A stretch of DNA of 37,570 nt, taken from positions 1-37,570 of the forward strand of contig JALOPH010000008.1 of the NCBI GenBank assembly GCA_025453995.1. Direction: 5' to 3'. Every line of letters begins with the position of its first letter. Position 1 is the stretch's first letter. The translations under genes were made by a program, and so were the position numbers. This document shows, piece after piece, positions 8,364-24,721 of this stretch. The stretch comes from Desulfobacterales bacterium (lineage in GTDB: Bacteria > Desulfobacterota > Desulfobacteria > Desulfobacterales > Desulfosalsimonadaceae). Under the pieces are notes generated by a model, which saw only the letters and a list, made by a program, of their open reading frames with translations, ran no database searches and was not told where the DNA came from.

Positions 8364-8417
8364 AATTGATGGACTCCAAAGAACTTAATCTTACTCAGTC
8401 CTGTTTTATGGGACGGT

Positions 8418-8488
8418 TCTCGTACTCGTACTCGTAATCGAGATAAAAAAACCGAGTACGCGTACGAGTACGAGCAGGAGTACGAGTA
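8418..8488. repeat. TACTCG/CGAGTA inverted repeat tract
   Basis: Copies of CTCGTACTCGTA (from 8419) are followed, after a short A-rich spacer, by the complementary TACGAGTACGAG (8463-8474) and further CGAGTA units, so the tract can fold into a hairpin with a stem of at least 12 bp. It uses the same hexamer as the tract at 5001-5046. It sits in the argF-argG spacer, about 45 bases before the argG start, so it could affect transcript continuity between the two. Confidence 0.75.
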
Positions 8489-8534
8489 TGAAGTATAACT
8501 TTACATTAGTTTTGACACTATAAGGAGACGTAAA

Positions 8535-9761
8535 TTGGCAAAACAGGTAAAAAAAGTGGTGCTGGCCTATTCCGGGGGCCTGGATACATCGGTGATTCTG
8601 AAATGGCTGATTGAAACTTATCAGTGCGAAGTGGTGGCTTTTTCTGCAGACATCGGCCAGGGCGAAGAGCTGGACCATCTGGATGAGAAAGCCAGAAACA
8701 CCGGAGCGGTCAAGATCTATATCGATGACCTGAAAGAGGAATTCGTGCGGGATTTCGTCTTTCCGGCATTTCGCGCCAACGCCATATACGAAGGCCAGTA
8801 TCTTCTGGGTACGTCGCTGGCAAGGCCGTTGATCGCCAAGCGCCAGATGGAGATCGCCCGCATGGAGCACGCGGACGCGGTCAGCCACGGGGCCACCGGC
8901 AAAGGCAATGACCAGGTCCGGTTTGAGCTGACCTATTTCGCGTTTGACCCGAACATCAAAATCATCGCGCCCTGGCGGGAATGGGATCTGACATCCAGAA
9001 CCGCGCTGATCGATTTTGCCGAAAAGCATAAAATCCCGGTGCAGGCCACCAAACAGAAGCCCTACAGCACGGACAGAAACCTTTTGCATATCAGCTATGA
9101 GGGCGGTATACTTGAAGATCCTTGGAATCATCCGCCGGAAGATATGTTTGTATTGACGGTTTCCCCGAAAACCGCTCCGGATGAACCTGAAATCATGGAA
9201 ATTACATTTAAAGAGGGGAACCCGGTGGCCATTAACGATCATTACCTGGCACCGGCTAACCTTCTGGCTGAGTTGAATAAGCTCGGAGGACGCCATGGCA
9301 TCGGGCGGTGCGACCTGGTTGAAAACAGGTTTGTGGGGATGAAATCCCGGGGCGTTTATGAAACTCCGGGCGGAACCATTCTCAGATCCGCCCATATGGC
9401 GCTGGAATCGATCACCCTGGATCGGGAAGTCATGCACTTGCGGGACTCCCTGATTCCCCGATATGCAGAAATGATCTATTACGGGTTCTGGTTTGCGCCC
9501 GAGCGGGAATTGCTTCAAAACCTGATTGATGATACCCAGAAAAACGTCAGCGGTGTGGTGCGATTGGAACTCTATAAGGGGAATTGCCGGGTTTTGGGCC
9601 GCAAATCCGACAACTCTCTCTACAATGTTGATTTTGCAACTTTTGAAGATGATTCTGTCTACCGGCAGCATGATGCCGAAGGGTTTATCCGGCTCAATGC
9701 GCTGCGGCTCAGGATACGAAAATTATTGCATGACCGGTCAAAATCAATGCCATTAACTTAA
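8535..9761 (+). CDS. argG: argininosuccinate synthase ArgG
   Basis: 408 residues. It joins citrulline and aspartate using ATP. The N-terminal ATP-pyrophosphatase P-loop is [15 protein letters not shown], followed by [12 protein letters not shown] and the Asp/citrulline-binding core; VNDHYLAP-like INDHYLAP and the C-terminal multimerisation helix are also present. The start is TTG 8535 with a strong AAGGAG at 8522-8527. The length is normal for the family. A 421-residue antisense frame across this gene is a composition artefact. Confidence 0.96.
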
Positions 9762-11316: not shown

Positions 11317-11494
11317 AGATTAATTTCGATAGCGTAGATTCATAGTGATTCTTAGAAGAATTTTTCGATTTAAAGCAAAACCAGGGGCGCGTTATTGCGG
11401 GCAAAGCGAAGAAGCCCCCTTGCAGGCGCTGGGATTGTTTTGCTTTGCCCCCAATGGCGGCCAATCGGAAGACAGTTGTGAAAAATTTTTCAAG

Positions 11495-11932
11495 ATGATT
11501 TTTATACGACGTTTTTTTCTGCCCGCAATATTAATTTGTGTCTTGCTGGCGGTCGCCTGCGGCAGAAAAGATTTACCGCTGCCGCCCAAAATCATCGAGC
11601 CGCCGGTTGTGGAAAAAATTAAAGCAGATCTGAACGGGGATAAACTGCAACTGACATGGCCCATCCCCAAAACAGATGAAGCTGATGCGCTGGCCGGGTT
11701 TTATGTCTACCGTTCAAAGGAAAAGGCAGGCGCGCCGCCCTGCAGCCAATGCCCGGTTCGATTTGACAGAGCCGCTGATATTGCCTATGACAGCGTCTCT
11801 TTGATGATTGAAAAAAATGCGGTATATTCGGAAAAACTTGAAAAAGGCTGCCAGTATAAGTATCGCGTGACCACTTATTCGGCCTATGGCGACGAGGGGC
11901 TGCCCTCTGAAGAAGTTACGGTAATATATTGA
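11495..11932 (+). CDS. lipoprotein with LptM-like N-terminus and Fn3-like domain
   Basis: From ATG 11495 the protein has 145 residues. It starts IRRFFLPAILICVLLAVAC, a typical lipoprotein signal, with the modified Cys followed by GRKDLPLPPKI, which resembles the CGxKGPLxLPP start of LptM/YifL lipoproteins. The rest looks like one fibronectin type III domain (LQLTWPIPK...GFYVYRSKE...YKYRVTTYSAYGDEG...). The frame is open upstream to 11345, but those 50 residues would bury the signal, so the internal ATG is preferred. Gammaproteobacterial lptM often lies by lysA; here it follows argH. It is inferred to be an outer-membrane-anchored periplasmic protein with unknown partner. Confidence 0.75.
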   Translation: MIFIRRFFLPAILICVLLAVACGRKDLPLPPKIIEPPVVEKIKADLNGDKLQLTWPIPKTDEADALAGFYVYRSKEKAGAPPCSQCPVRFDRAADIAYDSVSLMIEKNAVYSEKLEKGCQYKYRVTTYSAYGDEGLPSEEVTVIY

Positions 11933-16284: not shown

Positions 16285-16332
16285 ATTTAATGGTTTTGAG
16301 ACGCATCCTGTCCGGATATGAGGGGTAATATG

Positions 16333-17634
16333 ATGAATTCAGAACGCACGCGGATATCGACCGGGATCACAGCGCTGGATCCAATCCTTGGCGGGCTGCT
16401 GATTGGGGATAATGTGGTCTGGTATGATGATGCGGGAAGCCTGGCATCGGTTTTTTTAATGAATTTTCTGAAGGTTTCACAGGCCCAGAAAAAGCCTTTT
16501 ATTTACGTGAGTTTTGACCGGTCTCCGCGAAATCTGCTGGATAAGTTGGGCCCTCTGGCCGAATATGAAAATCTGACCATATTGGATTGCTTCACCTACG
16601 GAAAAGGCAAAGGGGTTGACACGTTTTTTCAGTTTTATAAAGACAAAAATTACCAGTGGCCGTGTCAACTGGTTCATGTAAACACGCCTCAAGACCCGGA
16701 CGCGGTCATGGATCATTTTCTATCCATCCATGCCGCCATGAAAAATGAAGTCAGGTTTGTGTTTGAAAGTTTGACCGGCATGCAGGAATTATGGGAGGGT
16801 GAAGATCAGATCAGCCGATTCTATTCCCACACATGTCCCCGGTTGTATGAGCTCAATACCGTCGGTTACTGGATTATGGAAAAGGACGCCCATTCCAAGC
16901 GCCTCAAAGCGTCGATCAACCAGATTGCCCAGGTCGCCATTGAACTCTCTTTGAAGCGCGGCAAAAATTCACTGTCGATTTTAAAAGCTGAAAACCGGGA
17001 GATCGATTCCGTCAACACCCCCTATTCATATTCGGCGAAAGGCTCTGCCGTTTCCTTTGATGAAAAGATATATGCCTCCGCCCAGGTTGATCTGGGAAAA
17101 CGGATCAAAGCGCTTCGGACAAAAAGAGGGATGTCCCAGACGGAACTTGCGCGCCTGATCGGGGTGACCCCCAGCAATATTTCCCAGATTGAAAGCAACC
17201 AGATTTATCCATCTTTGCCGGCCCTGTTTAAAGCCGCCGAAATTCTGTCCATTGATGTGGGTTCTTTTTTCCAGGAACTTCCGGATGTCAGAAATCGCAT
17301 TATTTTTTCCGGCGCGGAAGCGGTTGACATTCAAATACCGGACCTGCCCAGAGGCGTTGTCTCGGCAAAACTGCTTGCGCCAATGGACGCGGATATCAGG
17401 ACGGAACCTTATCTCATCGAGTTTGCGCCGAAAAAATCCCTGCCCGGTCATTTATTCATTCATAAGGGAGATGAGCTGGGTTATCTGATATCCGGAAAAC
17501 TGCAGATGAAGATCGGCAACACGGTTTATGCTTTGAGGGCCGGAGATGTTATTTATCTGAGTAAAGAAGTTCCTTCGCAGTGGAAGAATCCCGGCCCCGT
17601 TCCGGCGCAACTGTTTTGGCTTAAGTTAAAGTAA
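16333..17634 (+). CDS. KaiC-like (P-loop-less) / XRE helix-turn-helix / cupin fusion regulator
   Basis: 433 residues from ATG 16333, chosen because AGGGG (16321-16325) precedes it by seven bases; ATGs at 16318 and 16330 are in frame. Three domains are visible (numbers counted from 16318). Residues 12-225 follow the KaiC/Rad55 RecA-like pattern (RISTGITALDPILGG, FIYVSFDRSPRNL, VRFVFESLTGM), but the Walker A position reads YDDAGSLAS, with no GxGKT. Residues 258-317 are an XRE helix-turn-helix (GMSQTELARLIGVTPSNISQ). Residues 360-438 are a cupin_2 barrel (HLFIHKGDELGYLISGK). XRE-cupin proteins are transcription factors sensing small molecules; the added KaiC-like lobe suggests another input. It converges on the histidine-kinase operon. 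Confidence 0.85.
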   Translation: MNSERTRISTGITALDPILGGLLIGDNVVWYDDAGSLASVFLMNFLKVSQAQKKPFIYVSFDRSPRNLLDKLGPLAEYENLTILDCFTYGKGKGVDTFFQFYKDKNYQWPCQLVHVNTPQDPDAVMDHFLSIHAAMKNEVRFVFESLTGMQELWEGEDQISRFYSHTCPRLYELNTVGYWIMEKDAHSKRLKASINQIAQVAIELSLKRGKNSLSILKAENREIDSVNTPYSYSAKGSAVSFDEKIYASAQVDLGKRIKALRTKRGMSQTELARLIGVTPSNISQIESNQIYPSLPALFKAAEILSIDVGSFFQELPDVRNRIIFSGAEAVDIQIPDLPRGVVSAKLLAPMDADIRTEPYLIEFAPKKSLPGHLFIHKGDELGYLISGKLQMKIGNTVYALRAGDVIYLSKEVPSQWKNPGPVPAQLFWLKLK

Positions 17635-17653: not shown

Positions 17654-18760
17654 TTACAATGACATGGGATGTATCGGAAAGACCAGACAGAATGTGGACC
17701 CGGCGCCTTCGCTGCTTTCAAACTCGATAGTCCCGCCGTGGGCTTCCATTATTTTTTTGGTGATGGCAAGCCCGAGTCCGGTGCTTGTCTCGCCCGCGGT
17801 CGGCCGGATGCTCAGCCGGTGGAACTCGCTGAATAGAAGATGCTGCTCTTCCCTTGGTATGCCGGGGCCTTCGTCGCGCACGCTGAATTTTATGATATCC
17901 CCATCCTGTCTGAGAATTAAGTAGATGTTCGTGCCATAGGGCGCAAACTTGATGGCGTTGGAAATGAGATTGTCCACAGCCTGCCCGATGCGTTGAGAGT
18001 CAAACTCGATGGACGGAACGGTCAATAACTCCTGGTGGATGGAGATCTGTTTCTGGTTGGCTTGAAAGCTGTTTACGCGGACCTTGTCCTGGATGATCTT
18101 TATCAGTGATTCCGGTCGTTTGTTGATTTCCATCCGCCCGCTTTCGATCAAGGATACATCCAGGAGATCATTGAGCATGGCCAGCATGCCCCGGCTGGTG
18201 GTATAGATGATGGATAAAAATTCTTTCTGATCGTCGGTCAAATTGGAAGGATCCTTGAGCACAAGCTCGCTGAACCCCCGGATGGATATGATCGGGTTTC
18301 TGAGATCATGCGCGGCGATGCCAAGGAACTTGTTTTTCATCTGGTTGATGTCGAAAAGCTCCTTTTGCTTCTGCATCAGGGATTGTTCGAGTCCGATAAT
18401 CCTTTCGCCGACCTTGATTCTTGCCTGAAATTCCAGAAGATTTACGGGTTTTTTGACGTATTCGTCCACGCCGGCGGCAAATCCCTCCAGCAGATCGTCT
18501 CTTTCATTCTTTACAGTGAGCATGACAATAAAAACATAGCCTGACTGCTGTTCTTTCCGGATTTTTTTGCAAATATCAATTCCAGTCATATCCGGCAGTA
18601 TCCAATCAAGAATGGCAATGTTGATATTCTCTTTTTTGATTATCGCGTACGCTTCCAGTCCATTGGCGGTTTCAAACAGAGAGTATTTTTTTTCATCGAG
18701 ACACTGGGAGATCATTTTCCGGGTGGCGCCGTCATCATCTGCGATAAGTATCTTGATCAT
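17654..18760 (-). CDS. receiver-histidine kinase hybrid
   Basis: 368 residues with an N-terminal receiver (1-115: DDD at 8-10, phosphoacceptor Asp52, Thr82, Lys103/104), a coiled linker (about 118-145), a HisKA domain with phospho-His151 in AAHDLRNPI, and a HATPase_c domain (N264/N268, DEGPGIP at 296, GLGLA at 328). There is no membrane segment, so it is cytoplasmic and presumably receives phosphate or signal through its own receiver. Its ATG overlaps the stop of the GspE-like gene (ATGA), making it the last gene of the minus-strand signalling operon. Confidence 0.93.
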   Translation of the reverse strand: MIKILIADDDGATRKMISQCLDEKKYSLFETANGLEAYAIIKKENINIAILDWILPDMTGIDICKKIRKEQQSGYVFIVMLTVKNERDDLLEGFAAGVDEYVKKPVNLLEFQARIKVGERIIGLEQSLMQKQKELFDINQMKNKFLGIAAHDLRNPIISIRGFSELVLKDPSNLTDDQKEFLSIIYTTSRGMLAMLNDLLDVSLIESGRMEINKRPESLIKIIQDKVRVNSFQANQKQISIHQELLTVPSIEFDSQRIGQAVDNLISNAIKFAPYGTNIYLILRQDGDIIKFSVRDEGPGIPREEQHLLFSEFHRLSIRPTAGETSTGLGLAITKKIMEAHGGTIEFESSEGAGSTFCLVFPIHPMSL

Positions 18761-20460
18761 ATCTCTTTCCCCAAAATCTCTTTAAAAGTGGTAAGCCCCC
18801 TCAATACCTTTTTAATCCCATCGTATTCCTTGCTTTTAAATCCCAGCTGGGCGGCTGTCTGCACCATATGCTTCATAGGCGCTTTGCTGCTGATCAGGCG
18901 GAGCAGATTTTCATCTACGCTCAGGACTTCCTGCACGCCGATGCGGTCAAAAAAGCCAGTTTGACGGCAATAGGGACACCCTTTTTCGCGAAAGACGGTC
19001 ACTTCAGATGCCTGATCCCAGACAAACAATTTTTCAATTTCCGATGAGGACAGATTGTAGGGTTCTTTGCAGTGATCGCACAGGCGGCGAATGCACTGCG
19101 CGTTGATGATCACGGACACAATTTGATGAAGCCCCAGGCGGCTTGATTTTTCAAGCGCTTCCAAAGCATTTTCAGATTCCATGCCTCCTATAAAAAAGAT
19201 GTTTCTGTGTTCAGCCTCCCGTCGGACGATTTCAGCTATATCGGGATCATCCATGTTTTGAATGTAAATGACTTTTGGAAGAAGTTTGATGCATGACTCA
19301 AGGGCATCGGATCGATTAAACCCGGCCCTGGGATTTATCTGGAACTGGTCAATATCTTTTAAAAGCCGTTTGATGTTGTCTTCCACAGTCAGAATGCCAA
19401 TCTTTTCTGACCTGAGTTCCCTGAGGATGGCATACGCCAGGGTGGATTTTCCGGATTGCGGCGGGCCGGAAATGAGAATCATGCCTTTTTTCGACTTGAA
19501 TCCATTTCGGATCTGACGCATGTTTGAAAGAGACAAGCAGAGTTCTTTGAGATCCGGCGCGCGTTGAATCGGATGCCGATCCATCAGCTTGAGAAAAATC
19601 TTATCGCCGTAATCAGTCGGGAGGCATAAAAACTGAATATCAATTTTTTTCCCCGGCGTCGGAAAAATAATCCGCGAATAATGTGACTGGTTGTCCTTGA
19701 TAGCGTCCATCTTTGCCAGTTGTTTGAGCTTAAGCGCCAGTTTCTGGTACACGGGCTTATCCAGAGTGATCCGCTCTTTTAGGGATTCGCGGGTGACATG
19801 GTAAACTTTGGCAAAGTTATCTAAAGGTTCTATATGAATTTCACTGGCGTTCTCAATGACGCCAAAAAGGATCAGGGATATGTGGAATTGGTTGATCGCG
19901 TCTCTGCCGGCGATTTCAAAGAGTTTCTTTTCGTTGACAAAAATATCTTGCTTACATACTTGGCTTGCTTTGATTTTGGAAAAGAACTCATAAAGGGCGG
20001 CGTTTGTCTGATATTCATTTTCGATTGCCCATTCAATGTCCTGTGGCAGCGCAAAGACCAGATTGACCGGGGCGCCGACGACTTGCTGAATTTCTTTTTT
20101 GACGTTGTCATTATCCGGGGTAGCCGTGGCAACGGTAATCGTATCTCCCATTTGATAAACGGGAATGGCATAAACCTGCCTTGCCAGCCGTTCAGGTATT
20201 TTTCTGACCACATCAGGCTGAAACAATGATTTTTCCAGATCCACATGCGCGATCCCGATGGAATCACACCAGAGCTGACACAGTTGCCGCTTGGTTCCGA
20301 TTCTGCTTTGAATCAGGGTCGCAAGAACATCCAGCGCATTCCCGTCGAGCTCTTTGAGCAGGTCATGGATGAACTCATCGGGAATAAGCTGCTTTTTTTT
20401 CAGCAATTCAAAAAATTTCGGGTTTTCAATTTTCGGAGGGTTCATTTCAATCCACGGCAT
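18757..20460 (-). CDS. divergent GspE/PilB-like ATPase with degenerate catalytic motifs
   Basis: 567 residues. An N-terminal MshEN/T2SSE_N-like region (about 15-150) is followed by the type II secretion/type IV pilus ATPase fold (about 170-560). Walker A is GPPQSGKST (332-340), still with Lys338 and Ser339. The Asp box reads TVEDNIK rather than EDPVE, the Walker B region reads VIYIQNMDD (397-405) where GEIRD with a catalytic Glu is usual, and the His box is replaced by GGMESEN. The zinc tetra-Cys module is kept (Cys461/464, Cys495/498, with GFFDRIGVQEVL). It may bind nucleotide but hydrolyse poorly. No pilus or secretion genes are adjacent; it sits between receiver and kinase genes, pointing to a signalling or motility-control role. 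Translation is probably coupled to the overlapping 59-aa gene. Confidence 0.85.
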   Translation of the reverse strand: MPWIEMNPPKIENPKFFELLKKKQLIPDEFIHDLLKELDGNALDVLATLIQSRIGTKRQLCQLWCDSIGIAHVDLEKSLFQPDVVRKIPERLARQVYAIPVYQMGDTITVATATPDNDNVKKEIQQVVGAPVNLVFALPQDIEWAIENEYQTNAALYEFFSKIKASQVCKQDIFVNEKKLFEIAGRDAINQFHISLILFGVIENASEIHIEPLDNFAKVYHVTRESLKERITLDKPVYQKLALKLKQLAKMDAIKDNQSHYSRIIFPTPGKKIDIQFLCLPTDYGDKIFLKLMDRHPIQRAPDLKELCLSLSNMRQIRNGFKSKKGMILISGPPQSGKSTLAYAILRELRSEKIGILTVEDNIKRLLKDIDQFQINPRAGFNRSDALESCIKLLPKVIYIQNMDDPDIAEIVRREAEHRNIFFIGGMESENALEALEKSSRLGLHQIVSVIINAQCIRRLCDHCKEPYNLSSSEIEKLFVWDQASEVTVFREKGCPYCRQTGFFDRIGVQEVLSVDENLLRLISSKAPMKHMVQTAAQLGFKSKEYDGIKKVLRGLTTFKEILGKEI

Positions 20461-20626
20461 CAGGGGGCGTTGTTTTTTTCTTTTTCTTCAGGTTGTCAAG
20501 CATGAGATTGGTGATGACATCCTGCGATATGCCCTTTAGCTGTCTCACATCCGCTGTCTGGTCAAGAATATCGTCTTCGATCTCCGCCAGCATTCGGGCC
20601 AGGTCGTATTTTTCGTCAGGCATCAT
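20447..20626 (-). CDS. small acidic-N/basic-C protein, 59 aa
   Basis: This short frame begins with ATGATG, 11 bases after the CheY-like stop, and its TGA overlaps the start of the GspE-like gene by 14 bases, filling an otherwise empty slot in a tightly packed operon. The product starts MMPDEKYDLARMLAEIEDDI, probably one amphipathic helix, continues with DQTADVRQLKGISQDVI, and ends with a Lys-run KKKKK followed by TTPPDAVD. No homolog is recognised. It may be an adaptor between receiver and ATPase; that is inference from position only. Confidence 0.6.
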   Translation of the reverse strand: MMPDEKYDLARMLAEIEDDILDQTADVRQLKGISQDVITNLMLDNLKKKKKTTPPDAVD

Positions 20627-20637
20627 GAGCGCTCATC

Positions 20638-21036
20638 TTATGGTTTAAAGGTATCCCTGTAGGCTTGCCAGGTTTTCCGGATGATTTCCCTCATTTCATC
20701 GATCTCGATATCTTTGCGGATAAACCCGGATGCGCCGAGATTTATGCAGTCTTCTATGGTTTCCTTGTCTGAAAGGGAAGTCATCATGATGACAAAGGCA
20801 TTGGAATACCGCTGCAGTATTTCGGCAAGGGCTTCCTTGCCGGATTTCAGAGGCATGTTGATATCCAGCATCATAATGTTGGGTTTTAGCGTTTTAAACA
20901 GTTCAACGGCGTCCCGGCCGTTGGACGCTTCACCGACTACCTCGCAGTTCATGGTTGTCAGAACGGTCTTGATCAGCTTTCTGACATGGCTTTCGTCATC
21001 GGCAACAATGGCCCGTATTTTTTTTGTTTTCGTCAT
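20638..21036 (-). CDS. CheY-like single-domain response regulator
   Basis: 132 residues, a stand-alone receiver: Asp13-Asp14 (metal site), Asp58 phosphoacceptor in MMLDINMP, Thr86 (MMTS) and Lys108. No output domain. It is the first gene of the minus-strand operon and is followed by the 59-aa gene, the GspE-like ATPase and the REC-histidine kinase. It probably exchanges phosphate with that kinase and acts by protein contact, as CheY does. Its promoter should lie in 21037-21155, where no clear boxes were seen. Confidence 0.93.
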   Translation of the reverse strand: MTKTKKIRAIVADDESHVRKLIKTVLTTMNCEVVGEASNGRDAVELFKTLKPNIMMLDINMPLKSGKEALAEILQRYSNAFVIMMTSLSDKETIEDCINLGASGFIRKDIEIDEMREIIRKTWQAYRDTFKP

Positions 21037-21155: not shown

Positions 21156-23090
21156 TCAACCAATGGCTTTTGCCATCAATTCCCCGATGGTTTTGCTGAA
21201 ATGGGAGGGATTTTCAACCTTCCCGCCTTCGCCGATAACCGCGAGATCCAGCAGCAGATTACTGTAATCCGGCAGCGCTTCATCGTCTTTGTTCTTCTTG
21301 AAGATATCCTGGATTTTTTCCAGCACCGGATGGTTGATATTCAATTCCAGGATTCTTTTATTGTCGGGAATCGGTTGTCCTGCCGCCTTCAGAAGCTTTT
21401 CCATATAGGCGCTGGCGTCTGAAGCCTCTCCGGACAGGCAGGAGGGGGAGTCCTTTAAATGGGACGAAGGCCTGACCTCCTTGACCTTATCCTTCAGGCA
21501 TGATTTTATTTTTTCAAACAACGGCGCATAAGACTCTTTTTTTGTTTCATCCACCTTCTGAATATTCAAGTCGCCTTTTTCAGCGCTTTTGAATTTCTTC
21601 CCCTCGTATTCATTGAGGGAATGGATGGCGAATTCATCCACGGGATCTGTCATCAGCAGGACCTCATACCCTTTGTCTTTTAATACCTCCAGGTGCGGGC
21701 TGTTGATGATGGAGGTGATATTCTCGCCGGTGATATAGTAAATATCGCTTTGATCCGGGGGCATGTTTTTGACGTAATCATCCAGGGATACCCATTTGTC
21801 GGCTGAACGGGTGGTTTTAAACCGCGCGAGCTTTGAAATCTTTTCCTTATTCGCCCAGTCCGTGTGCAGGCCCTCTTTCAGCACGGAGCCGAACTCGTTA
21901 AAGAATTTCTCGAACTTTTCAGAATCCATGGCTTCAAGAGTATCCAATATTTTCTTGACCAGGTTTTTCCGGATGTTCCTCACAAGAGCATCCTGCTGAA
22001 GAATTTCGCGGCTGATATTGAGGTTTAAATCCGGGGCGTCCACGACCCCCTTTATAAATCTCAAATATTCCGGAATCAACTCCTTGCAGTCATCCATGAT
22101 GAACACCCGCCGGCAATAAAGCTGAATCCCGTGACGTCTCTGGGGGAAAAACAGATCAAAGGGCGCCTTGGAGGGGATGTACAGGAGGGCGTTGTATTCG
22201 GTGACGCCTTCCATTTTCAGGTGAATGTGTTCAAGGGGCGGATTCCAGTCATGGCTGATGTGTGAGTAAAAATCATTGTAGTCCTGGTCCGTGACATCTT
22301 TTTTGTCTTTTGCCCAGATGGCCTTCATGGAATTTAAGGTTTCCTCCTGGACTGTCTTTTCCTTCGGGCCTTCAATGGGTTTGCCGTCTTTGTCCAGAAT
22401 CTGTCCGGCGGCATCGTCTTTGGCTGCGGCTTCGCGCTCCACATCCATGACCACTGGATAGTTTACAAAATCCGAATGTTTTTTCACTATTTGCCGGATG
22501 GTCCATTCCTCAGTAAAGTCCTGCTCCTCTTTTTCAACGGCTTTCAAATGCAGGATGACATCTGTGCCCCTGGATGCCTTGTCGGCTGTTTCAATGGTAT
22601 AGGTGCCGTCGCCGGAGGATTCCCATTTAACGCCGCTGTCGGAACCGGCGGTCCGGGTGATCAGGGTGACTTTGTCGGCCACTATAAACGAACTGTAAAA
22701 TCCGACGCCGAATTGTCCGATGAGTTCAGGGGCCAGCATGTTCTGGTTTTTTGACTTTTCAAGGGCTTCCATAAACGCCGCCGTGCCGCTTTTGGCGATG
22801 GTGCCGATATTTTCAACCACTTCGTCATGGGTCATGCCGATGCCGTTGTCGGAAATCATCAGGGACCGATTCTTTTTATCCGGTGTGACTTTGATTTTGT
22901 ATGCCGTGTCATCGCCGCTGATTTCAGGGTCGGTCTGGGACTTGAACCGGAGGCGGTCAATGGCGTCGGAGGCGTTTGAAATAAGTTCCCGCAGAAAAAT
23001 TTCCTTGTTGGAATAGAGGGAATTGATAATCAGATTCATGAACTGCTTGACTTCTGTTTTGAACTGATATGTTATTTTCTTTTCTTCCAT
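21156..23090 (-). CDS. htpG: molecular chaperone HtpG (Hsp90 family)
   Basis: From ATG 23090, which has GGAG seven bases upstream, the protein is 644 residues, normal for HtpG; an in-frame ATG nine codons earlier would add MIIQFEEKV and lacks such a site. The GHKL ATP-binding domain shows [20 protein letters not shown] and GQFGVGFYS. The middle domain contains RGVVD-type [16 protein letters not shown], and the C-terminal dimer domain follows. There is no CIRCE element upstream; a TTGACA promoter facing this gene lies at 23155-23182. Confidence 0.97.
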
Positions 23091-23154
23091 AACTTTCTCC
23101 TCGAATTGGATGATCAATTGGATTGATTGAAGGTGATAACTCTTTTTTGCCTAT

Positions 23155-23182
23155 ATAATGGTTTCGGATTTCATTTTGTCAA
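23155..23182 (-). promoter_or_regulatory. candidate htpG promoter
   Basis: On the minus strand a perfect TTGACA (23182-23177) is followed after 16 bases by CATTAT (23160-23155), about 65 bases before the htpG start. The same short divergent spacer must also drive the rhomboid gene; on the plus strand TATAAT is present at 23154-23159, so the two -10 boxes would overlap back to back. Confidence 0.45.
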
Positions 23183-23198
23183 TCCCTTTTGAATTAAT

Positions 23199-24074
23199 AT
23201 GCCGATACTATATGAAAATTTGACAAAACCCCAGGCAGATTTATGCGGCCTGGTATTGGCCTCGTCCGGGATACTGTTCAGGCTGTCCAAGGACCGGAGC
23301 GGGATCGCCGTTTGGGTGTCAGCAGAGGAGTATGAGCGCGCCCGGCAGTGCATGGGGAGCTATTTTAGCGAGAACAGGTCGGCGGCGCCGTTTCCGGATA
23401 AAAGGTGGGGCGGGGTATCGGTTGGGACCATCTTGGCCAATGTCATTGCGGCGGCGGTTTTGCTTGTCTTTTACAGTAAAATCGCCGGAGCCGGCATAGA
23501 ACAAAAGATGACGGACCTGTATGGTTCATCCGCCAGAGCGATTGTGGGCGGCGATATTTACCGAGGCGTCACGTCATTGATGCTTCACGCGGACATGACC
23601 CATCTTGCGGGGAACATGGCCGGCATTATCCTTTTCGGCACAGCGGTTTGCGCGGTCTGCGGGTGGGGCGTCGGATGGCTGATGATCCTCATGTCGGGCG
23701 TAGCCGGCAACCTGATCAATGCGTATATGTACGAATCCGGCCATATATCCATCGGCGCGTCCACCGCTGTTTTCGGGGCCATTGGGATTCTTTCGGGGTA
23801 TCAGCTGATCAGCAGCCAACGGTTTCATCACAGGGGGTTGGCGTCCTGGGCCCCCCTTGCGTGCGGGTTGGCGCTGCTGGGCCTCTTCGGGTCGGGGCCT
23901 CATTCGGATATTGCCGCCCATTTTTTCGGATTTGCCGCCGGCGCCGCCCTGGGGCTGTGCTATGCCATGGCGGTCCGGCATCCATTAAAATTGTATATCC
24001 AAATAATTTCAATATGTTTAGTTTTTTTTATGATCGCAATATCCTGGTTCGCGGGGTGGCGGGGAATTGCCTGA
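23199..24074 (+). CDS. rhomboid-family intramembrane serine protease
   Basis: 291 residues. The core has about six membrane segments with HLAGNM (His135, Asn139), the nucleophile Ser188 in SIGASTAVFG and the catalytic His241 in IAAHFFGF. It cleaves membrane proteins within the bilayer. The usual GxSG is GAST, a variant seen in many bacterial rhomboids. The first 60 residues form a soluble domain (PQADLCGLVLASSGILFRL...VWVSAEEYERARQC) resembling the small DUF2007-type fold. It is divergent from htpG. Confidence 0.88.
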   Translation: MPILYENLTKPQADLCGLVLASSGILFRLSKDRSGIAVWVSAEEYERARQCMGSYFSENRSAAPFPDKRWGGVSVGTILANVIAAAVLLVFYSKIAGAGIEQKMTDLYGSSARAIVGGDIYRGVTSLMLHADMTHLAGNMAGIILFGTAVCAVCGWGVGWLMILMSGVAGNLINAYMYESGHISIGASTAVFGAIGILSGYQLISSQRFHHRGLASWAPLACGLALLGLFGSGPHSDIAAHFFGFAAGAALGLCYAMAVRHPLKLYIQIISICLVFFMIAISWFAGWRGIA

Positions 24075-24166
24075 CATAAAGGAATTGATATGGGCCTGTT
24101 TTTTGGTTATTGGTTATCAAAATAAAGGTATAAAAGGCGGGAGCCGACTGAAAACATCAAGGATGG

Positions 24167-24721
24167 ATGATGAAGAACATAGCGGATCTTTTGTTTGAGG
24201 CCAAAATCTTGAAATTTGTTCCCAGGGCGGGGTTTCATTTTCTGGGAGCCGGCAGGGAAACGGTTGCCGAGCATTCATTCTCCACAACCTTTATCGCGTT
24301 TGTGATGTCCAAACTCCAGCCTGAAGTGGACGCGCTCAAATTGATTTCCATGTGCCTGATCCACGATCTGGCCGAAGCCAGGACCGGCGACCATAATTAT
24401 GTTCATAAACGCTACGTTTCTGTGGATGAGAAACAGGCGGTTCTGGACGCGACAAAGGGCATTGACTTCGGTGATTCAGTGGTTGACCTTTTAATGGAAT
24501 TTAAGAGCCAGGACACCAGAGAATCTCTCCTGGCCCATGATGCGGACCAGCTGGCCTTCATCCTGGATCTAAAATCCATTTCAGACACCGGCCATTCGGC
24601 GCCCGATGAGTGGATACCGGTGGTGATCAAAAGGCTTAAAACAGAAATCGGCCGGAAAATCGCCGCCGGCATCATGAAAACCAAGTGGGACGCCTGGTGG
24701 ATGGATGATTATAAGGAATAA
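24167..24721 (+). CDS. HD-domain hydrolase, YfbR/5'-deoxynucleotidase-like
   Basis: 184 residues with the HD metal site: His36 (VAEHSF), His66-Asp67 (LIHDLAEA) and a later Asp in AHDADQLAF. The family includes 5'-deoxyribonucleotidases and other HD phosphohydrolases of about 180-200 residues; the AEHS and HDxxEx7GD pattern (HDLAEARTGDHNY) fits this group. The substrate is inferred. Two adjacent ATGs (24167, 24170) are candidate starts. It is monocistronic as far as can be seen. Confidence 0.82.
   Translation: MMKNIADLLFEAKILKFVPRAGFHFLGAGRETVAEHSFSTTFIAFVMSKLQPEVDALKLISMCLIHDLAEARTGDHNYVHKRYVSVDEKQAVLDATKGIDFGDSVVDLLMEFKSQDTRESLLAHDADQLAFILDLKSISDTGHSAPDEWIPVVIKRLKTEIGRKIAAGIMKTKWDAWWMDDYKE

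Follow-up and report, generated by a model that had tools for sequence, protein, structure and literature searches.

A PilB-like pseudo-ATPase in a conserved operon with a CheY-like receiver, a histidine kinase and a candidate small adaptor

CheY-like proteins regulate pilus extension ATPases in Synechocystis, where PixE was reported to interact with PilB1 (PMC7690835), and in the Pil-Chp system of Pseudomonas, where PilG and PilH control PilB, with PilG determining its localisation (PMC12632253). A Walker A mutant of the PilB protein from Myxococcus signals exopolysaccharide production without hydrolysing ATP (PMC5544727), and the N-terminal peptide of FliM is a known CheY ligand (PMC7355467). 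Here we compare with these systems a four-gene operon at positions 17654-21036 (minus strand) of a 37,570-nucleotide stretch of a Desulfobacterales genome (the window), which encodes, in this order, a CheY-like receiver, a 59-residue protein (p59), a PilB/GspE-like ATPase and a histidine kinase (HK).

The operon resembles the PixE-PilB1 and PilG/PilH systems in pairing a CheY-like regulator with a pilus extension ATPase, but its kinase is an orphan HK and not a CheA array, p59 is a separate small protein, the ATPase is catalytically dead, and no PATAN domain was found. The module ATPase shares the fold, the domain order and the four-Cys Zn module of the PilB/GspE extension ATPases (TIGR02538, TIGR02533, PF00437), and outgroup copies have all catalytic motifs. 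In contrast to PilB/GspE, it scores below the family cut-offs, forms its own clade, is located outside a pilus cluster, is paired with CheY and p59, and has lost catalytic residues in the window's family (Desulfosalsimonadaceae). Signalling by a PilB protein without hydrolysis would be the trait in common with Myxococcus, although there it was obtained by mutating a functional motor in the laboratory, whereas here a natural, fixed pseudo-ATPase is part of a two-component operon. Outgroup p59 proteins, encoded beside CheY, contain an LSQ(D/E)x(I/V)xxLL-like helix as found in FliM. However, p59 is not FliM, the motif is only partly kept in the window's family, and CheY binding is a candidate property deduced from sequence. 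No prior description of the module was found in the openly licensed papers searched; judged by that literature, it represents a variant of CheY-type control over pilus motor ATPases that has not been described before.

Gene order and conservation of the module

The four genes are packed with an 11-bp gap between CheY and p59, a 14-bp overlap of p59 and the ATPase, and a 4-bp overlap of the ATPase and the HK, in agreement with the tight packing described in the original prediction, which had been made from the DNA letters alone. The CheY-like protein (132 aa, 20638-21036, minus strand like the other three) is a single-domain receiver (Pfam Response_reg, E=1.9e-26). It is followed by p59 (20447-20626), a candidate small two-helix adaptor annotated from two motifs, an AlphaFold2 (AF2) model and its occurrence beside the ATPase. 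The PilB/GspE-like pseudo-ATPase (567 aa, 18757-20460) was assigned by its PF00437 (T2SSE) and MshEN matches, motif inspection, an AF2 model and a fold search. The HK (368 aa, 17654-18760) has a REC-HisKA-HATPase_c architecture (Pfam Response_reg, HisKA and HATPase_c). As also predicted, no pilus or secretion gene was found among the 23 other genes of the window scanned with Pfam.

A search of the order with the ATPase yielded matches in 37 of 389 genomes at E<=1e-90. In the 39 loci that were fetched, representing at least 11 families, CheY adjoins the ATPase in 37 (all but L143 and L147, where it was not found), p59 occurs in 38 (all but L147, with L141, L142 and L143 carrying it as a fusion with a PilT-like ATPase), and an HK is adjacent in 27, with L048 not assessable for the HK because its sequence stops right after the ATPase. 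The co-occurrence of the four genes, for which the original prediction had suggested a search, is therefore borne out: the neighbours are conserved together, and the ATPase gene does not reside in ordinary pilus clusters. The gene order is CheY-p59-ATPase-HK in the window's family and HK-CheY-p59-ATPase in other families. The HK thus changed sides between families while the linkage was kept, which favours a shared function. CheY, p59 and the HK are the only widely kept neighbours of the ATPase across families; other neighbours identified, a tRNA U5-methyltransferase-like protein (cluster 8) and 2-oxoacid:ferredoxin oxidoreductase subunits (clusters 11/12), appear unrelated to the module. We read the operon as a small signalling unit, a phosphorylation module conserved across families.

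All phosphorylation-site residues of the window CheY are present (D14, D58, T86 and K108). D14, D58 and K108 do not vary among the 32 module CheYs that were compared, 31 of which also have the threonine of T86, and these residues are retained even beside catalytically dead ATPases. In one genome (L076) the HK and CheY are naturally fused. The phosphotransfer chain from HK to CheY thus appears intact, as judged by its conserved residues.

No sensor domain was recognised in the 368-residue kinase of the window. In four loci (L072, L141, L142 and L144) a gene for a di-iron protein of the ODP family is located directly upstream of the HK; it is absent from the window operon. ODP (PF19583) is the oxygen sensor of Treponema chemotaxis (PMC7666581), where it pairs with CheA and MCP, whereas the ODP-family gene pairs with a HisKA kinase in these four loci.

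The genome (3.65 Mb, 92% complete) encodes ordinary motors elsewhere, with five canonical T2SSE ATPases, PilC/GspF-type proteins and PilT/PilU. The module is therefore not the basic pilus motor of the cell.

Loss of catalytic motifs in the ATPase

The window ATPase consists of an MshEN-like N domain (Pfam MshEN, E=8e-13) followed by the N2D/CTD motor core (PF00437, E=1.5e-50). The AF2 model has a mean predicted local distance difference test score (pLDDT) of 86.6, and the PDB structures with the closest folds are those of GspE, PilF and PilB (E down to 2.9e-37). Nevertheless, the NCBIfam scores are far below the cut-offs for PilB (TIGR02538, 236.7 versus 675.65) and GspE (TIGR02533, 224.5 versus 630.25).

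The Walker A motif reads GPPQSGKS and retains the lysine. In the Walker B motif GEIRD is replaced by QNMDD, with loss of the catalytic glutamate, and in the His box TxHTN is replaced by GMESEN, with loss of the histidine. The four cysteines of the Zn module (C461, C464, C495 and C498) are present, and they are invariant across a 30-row alignment. These observations match the motif assignments of the original prediction, except that its loss of the Asp box holds only in part: VEDPVE has become VEDNIK, in which the P-x-E portion is gone and E360 and D361 are retained, E360 being invariant in the same alignment. Although the MshEN fold matches Pfam, no RLG of the tandem motif for cyclic di-GMP (RLGxxL...Q) was recognisable by eye in the alignments of the ATPase subfamily; we therefore rejected the ATPase as a cyclic di-GMP receptor, and the suggestion of cyclic di-GMP sensing is likely wrong.

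In a maximum-likelihood tree, the 39 module ATPases form a single clade (support 100/100), separate from ten ordinary PilB-type sequences. A profile built from outgroup ATPases gives more than about 600 bits for module copies, compared with at most 567 bits for ordinary PilB proteins in the phylum and class samples; degenerate copies of the window's family reach only about 504-547 bits with this profile, and were recognised by the order-wide search (E<=1e-90) and the tree. Outgroup ATPases such as those of L070-L073, L075-L077, L141, L142 and L144-L146 keep all catalytic motifs (P-loop, EDPVE, GE[IV]RD and H-[TS]-N). The Walker B glutamate and the His-box histidine are both lost in all 20 aligned ATPases of the window's family, ten of which (L049, L050 and L052-L059) have additionally lost the Walker A lysine. 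Five changes are needed on the tree to account for the loss of catalysis, at least three of them forced by well-supported branches. Because the outgroups have the same operon with a catalytically intact ATPase, degeneration of the ATPase was probably a later and repeated event.

The ATPase reading frames are full-length and intact throughout the window's family. In close pairs with dead motors, which lack the Walker B or also the Walker A residue, the ratio of nonsynonymous to synonymous substitutions (dN/dS) of the ATPase is 0.15-0.17, similar to that of CheY (0.10-0.22) and somewhat higher than that of the HK (0.05-0.13). Judged from these ratios, the ATPase in the window's family is a maintained pseudo-ATPase under purifying selection, and not a relic.

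p59 and its FliM-like motif

No Pfam or NCBIfam family matched p59. The protein has an N-terminal motif, EKYDLxxMLxEIxxD, and a C-terminal FliM-like motif, (L/I)SQDxIxx(L/M)(L/M), which reads ISQDVITNLM in the window. SQxxI is kept in most copies, and Q35 and I38 are invariant in a 28-row alignment. In the AF2 model (pLDDT 78), residues 9-30 and 35-52 each form a helix, and the latter helix begins immediately after the motif serine. When the phylum was searched with a p59 profile, 2 of 297 genomes matched, both of them carrying the module.

FliM N-termini from the same genomes are LSQDEVDSLL-like. Scored with a FliM matrix, most outgroup p59 proteins reach 7-19 bits, and the best one (18.9 bits) exceeds all 2307 control windows (maximum 15.1 bits). 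Only 2% of shuffled sequences, and likewise 2% of control windows, attain the median score of the 28 aligned copies.

In all three members of family f155, p59 forms the N-terminus of a PilT-like ATPase (L141:10406-12073, minus strand; L142:9826-11559, minus strand; L143:4418-5905, plus strand). The first two of these fusions also contain MshEN and adjoin the ODP gene, and one of the three exceeds the TIGR01420 cut-off for PilT. The PilT-like ATPase may thus be a second motor-type partner of p59, and the fusion links p59 to pilus-type motors. Separately, G000 encodes a 534-residue PilT-family protein with a long N-terminal extension (contig C329, L165:4396-6000), and long PilTs occur in several relatives too; we rejected this homologue as a p59 fusion, since p59 is neither in the protein nor nearby.

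Proposed mechanism and alternative explanations

We hypothesize that the HK phosphorylates the CheY-like receiver, and that phosphorylated CheY (CheY~P) would dock on p59 via the FliM-like LSQ/ISQ helix. The other helix of p59 (EKYDLxxMLxEI) would anchor the adaptor on the PilB-family ATPase, and phosphorylation would thereby alter the conformation, assembly or localisation of a putative ATPase ring. In the ancestral form, which is still found in other families, the ring would be a PilB-type motor with complete catalytic motifs that most likely works together with the type IV pilus machinery of the cell. In the window's family it has become a pseudo-ATPase that would no longer perform hydrolytic work and most likely serves as a scaffold under phosphorylation control, or as a regulatory partner for the ordinary PilB/PilC. 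We infer both contacts of p59 as well as the control of type IV pili, and we consider the chances of this reading as a whole to be about even. The broader claim, that the module represents a new class of CheY output in which a self-contained HK-CheY-adaptor-PilB unit uses a FliM-like peptide on a small protein to connect receiver phosphorylation with a pilus-motor ring, the ring having become a non-hydrolysing signalling scaffold independently in several lineages, is more tentative, and we would put it at somewhat worse than even. The signalling hub of the original prediction is partly supported, by the co-occurrence of the genes, the motor fold without catalytic residues, the selection on the ATPase and the intact phosphotransfer residues, while the ring and the hub role itself remain proposals, and the ATPase may instead be, for example, a regulatory subunit of the ordinary pilus motor.

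Several observations weigh against the proposed mechanism. Copies of p59 from the window's family match the FliM matrix weakly, with ISQ or IPQ in place of LSQ and scores often below 5 bits (7.3 bits for the window copy), and the predicted TM-score of the AF2 model of the window ATPase is only 0.55. Of 29 module genomes tested, all carry T2SSF and 28 carry PilT/PilU, which agrees with a pilus target, but six related genomes without the module also carry PilT, and the presence of PilT is therefore uninformative. The operon lacks linked pilus genes except in one genome (G247), where two tandem PilT paralogues (L055:1216-3360, minus strand) follow the module HK at a distance of about 0.8 kb, beyond an 84-aa gene. 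The distribution of FliM, discussed below, could indicate a flagellar target.

CheY may instead contact the ATPase directly, as has been proposed for PixE and PilB1, with p59 in an accessory role, as a chaperone of the ATPase or a factor that stabilises it, and not as a CheY adaptor. The strict pairing of p59 with the ATPase, the fusion to a PilT-like ATPase and the Synechocystis precedent (PMC7690835) are in agreement with such an arrangement. It leaves aside the retention of SQxxI in most p59 copies, the invariance of Q35 and I38, and the resemblance to a known CheY ligand in the outgroups, and we regard it as a minority possibility.

Alternatively, p59 on an ATPase ring could mimic FliM, and compete with it for CheY~P or sequester CheY~P, as part of a flagellar or general buffering of CheY; the ATPase and the motif would then decay once flagella were lost. 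Nine of the 12 genomes whose ATPase is intact carry FliM, compared with 3 of the 30 whose ATPase is degenerate, a count that is confounded by relatedness and in which three of the degenerate genomes (G318, G336 and G341) were classed by family membership, without motif inspection. When the window's family is set aside, p59 resembles FliM more closely in genomes with FliM than in those without (10 versus 9 copies, Mann-Whitney p=0.008, uncorrected for kinship), and the FliM-negative member of f155 has lost both the catalytic residues and the p59 motif. The flagellar link is suggestive only. FliM was rejected as a strict predictor of catalytic integrity: G353, G387 and G006 are intact without FliM, and G024, G310 and G330 are degenerate with it. 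Moreover, selection keeps the operon in a family mostly without FliM, and the operon contains a PilB-type motor (in f155 a PilT-type motor too) and no flagellar parts. Against this background, we consider buffering of CheY unlikely.

It is very improbable that p59 is a small DNA-binding protein of the ribbon-helix-helix type, and the operon a regulator of transcription: the protein is small, has a Lys-rich C-terminus and gives a weak profile match to CdbA, but the E-value of 0.045 is within chance for a library search, no beta strand is predicted, and p59 is fused to an ATPase. A decaying relic, in which an ordinary PilB paralogue is being lost, would fit the progressive loss of motifs, but is already contradicted by the intact frames, the low dN/dS, the invariant Zn cysteines and many other invariant columns, and the retained operon, and we give it hardly any credence.

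We hypothesize, in sum, an HK-CheY~P-p59 pathway to a PilB-family ring. The upstream neighbour of the operon is htpG, which together with rhomboid and HD-domain genes (21156-24721) is syntenic with the module across much of the window's family. A 438-aa protein encoded on the plus strand (16318-17634) converges on the operon; it contains HTH_3 and cupin domains and a weakly KaiC-like N-terminus (below the Pfam cut-off), and a 60% relative is located near the module in L049. Two further proteins of the window, of 421 aa (8406-9671, minus strand) and 195 aa (11345-11932, plus strand), gave no Pfam hit at 1e-5.

The mode of action of CheY-like regulators on PilB is unsettled for the Pil-Chp and phototaxis systems, and the four adjacent genes make such a coupling directly testable. 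If the proposed mechanism is true, one conserved operon would hold a natural series that leads from a functional motor to a pseudo-ATPase, and a molecular motor would have been recruited as a signalling component in the window's lineage. Such a series would fit the idea, raised by the Myxococcus PilB mutants, of pilus ATPases that signal even when they do not hydrolyse ATP.

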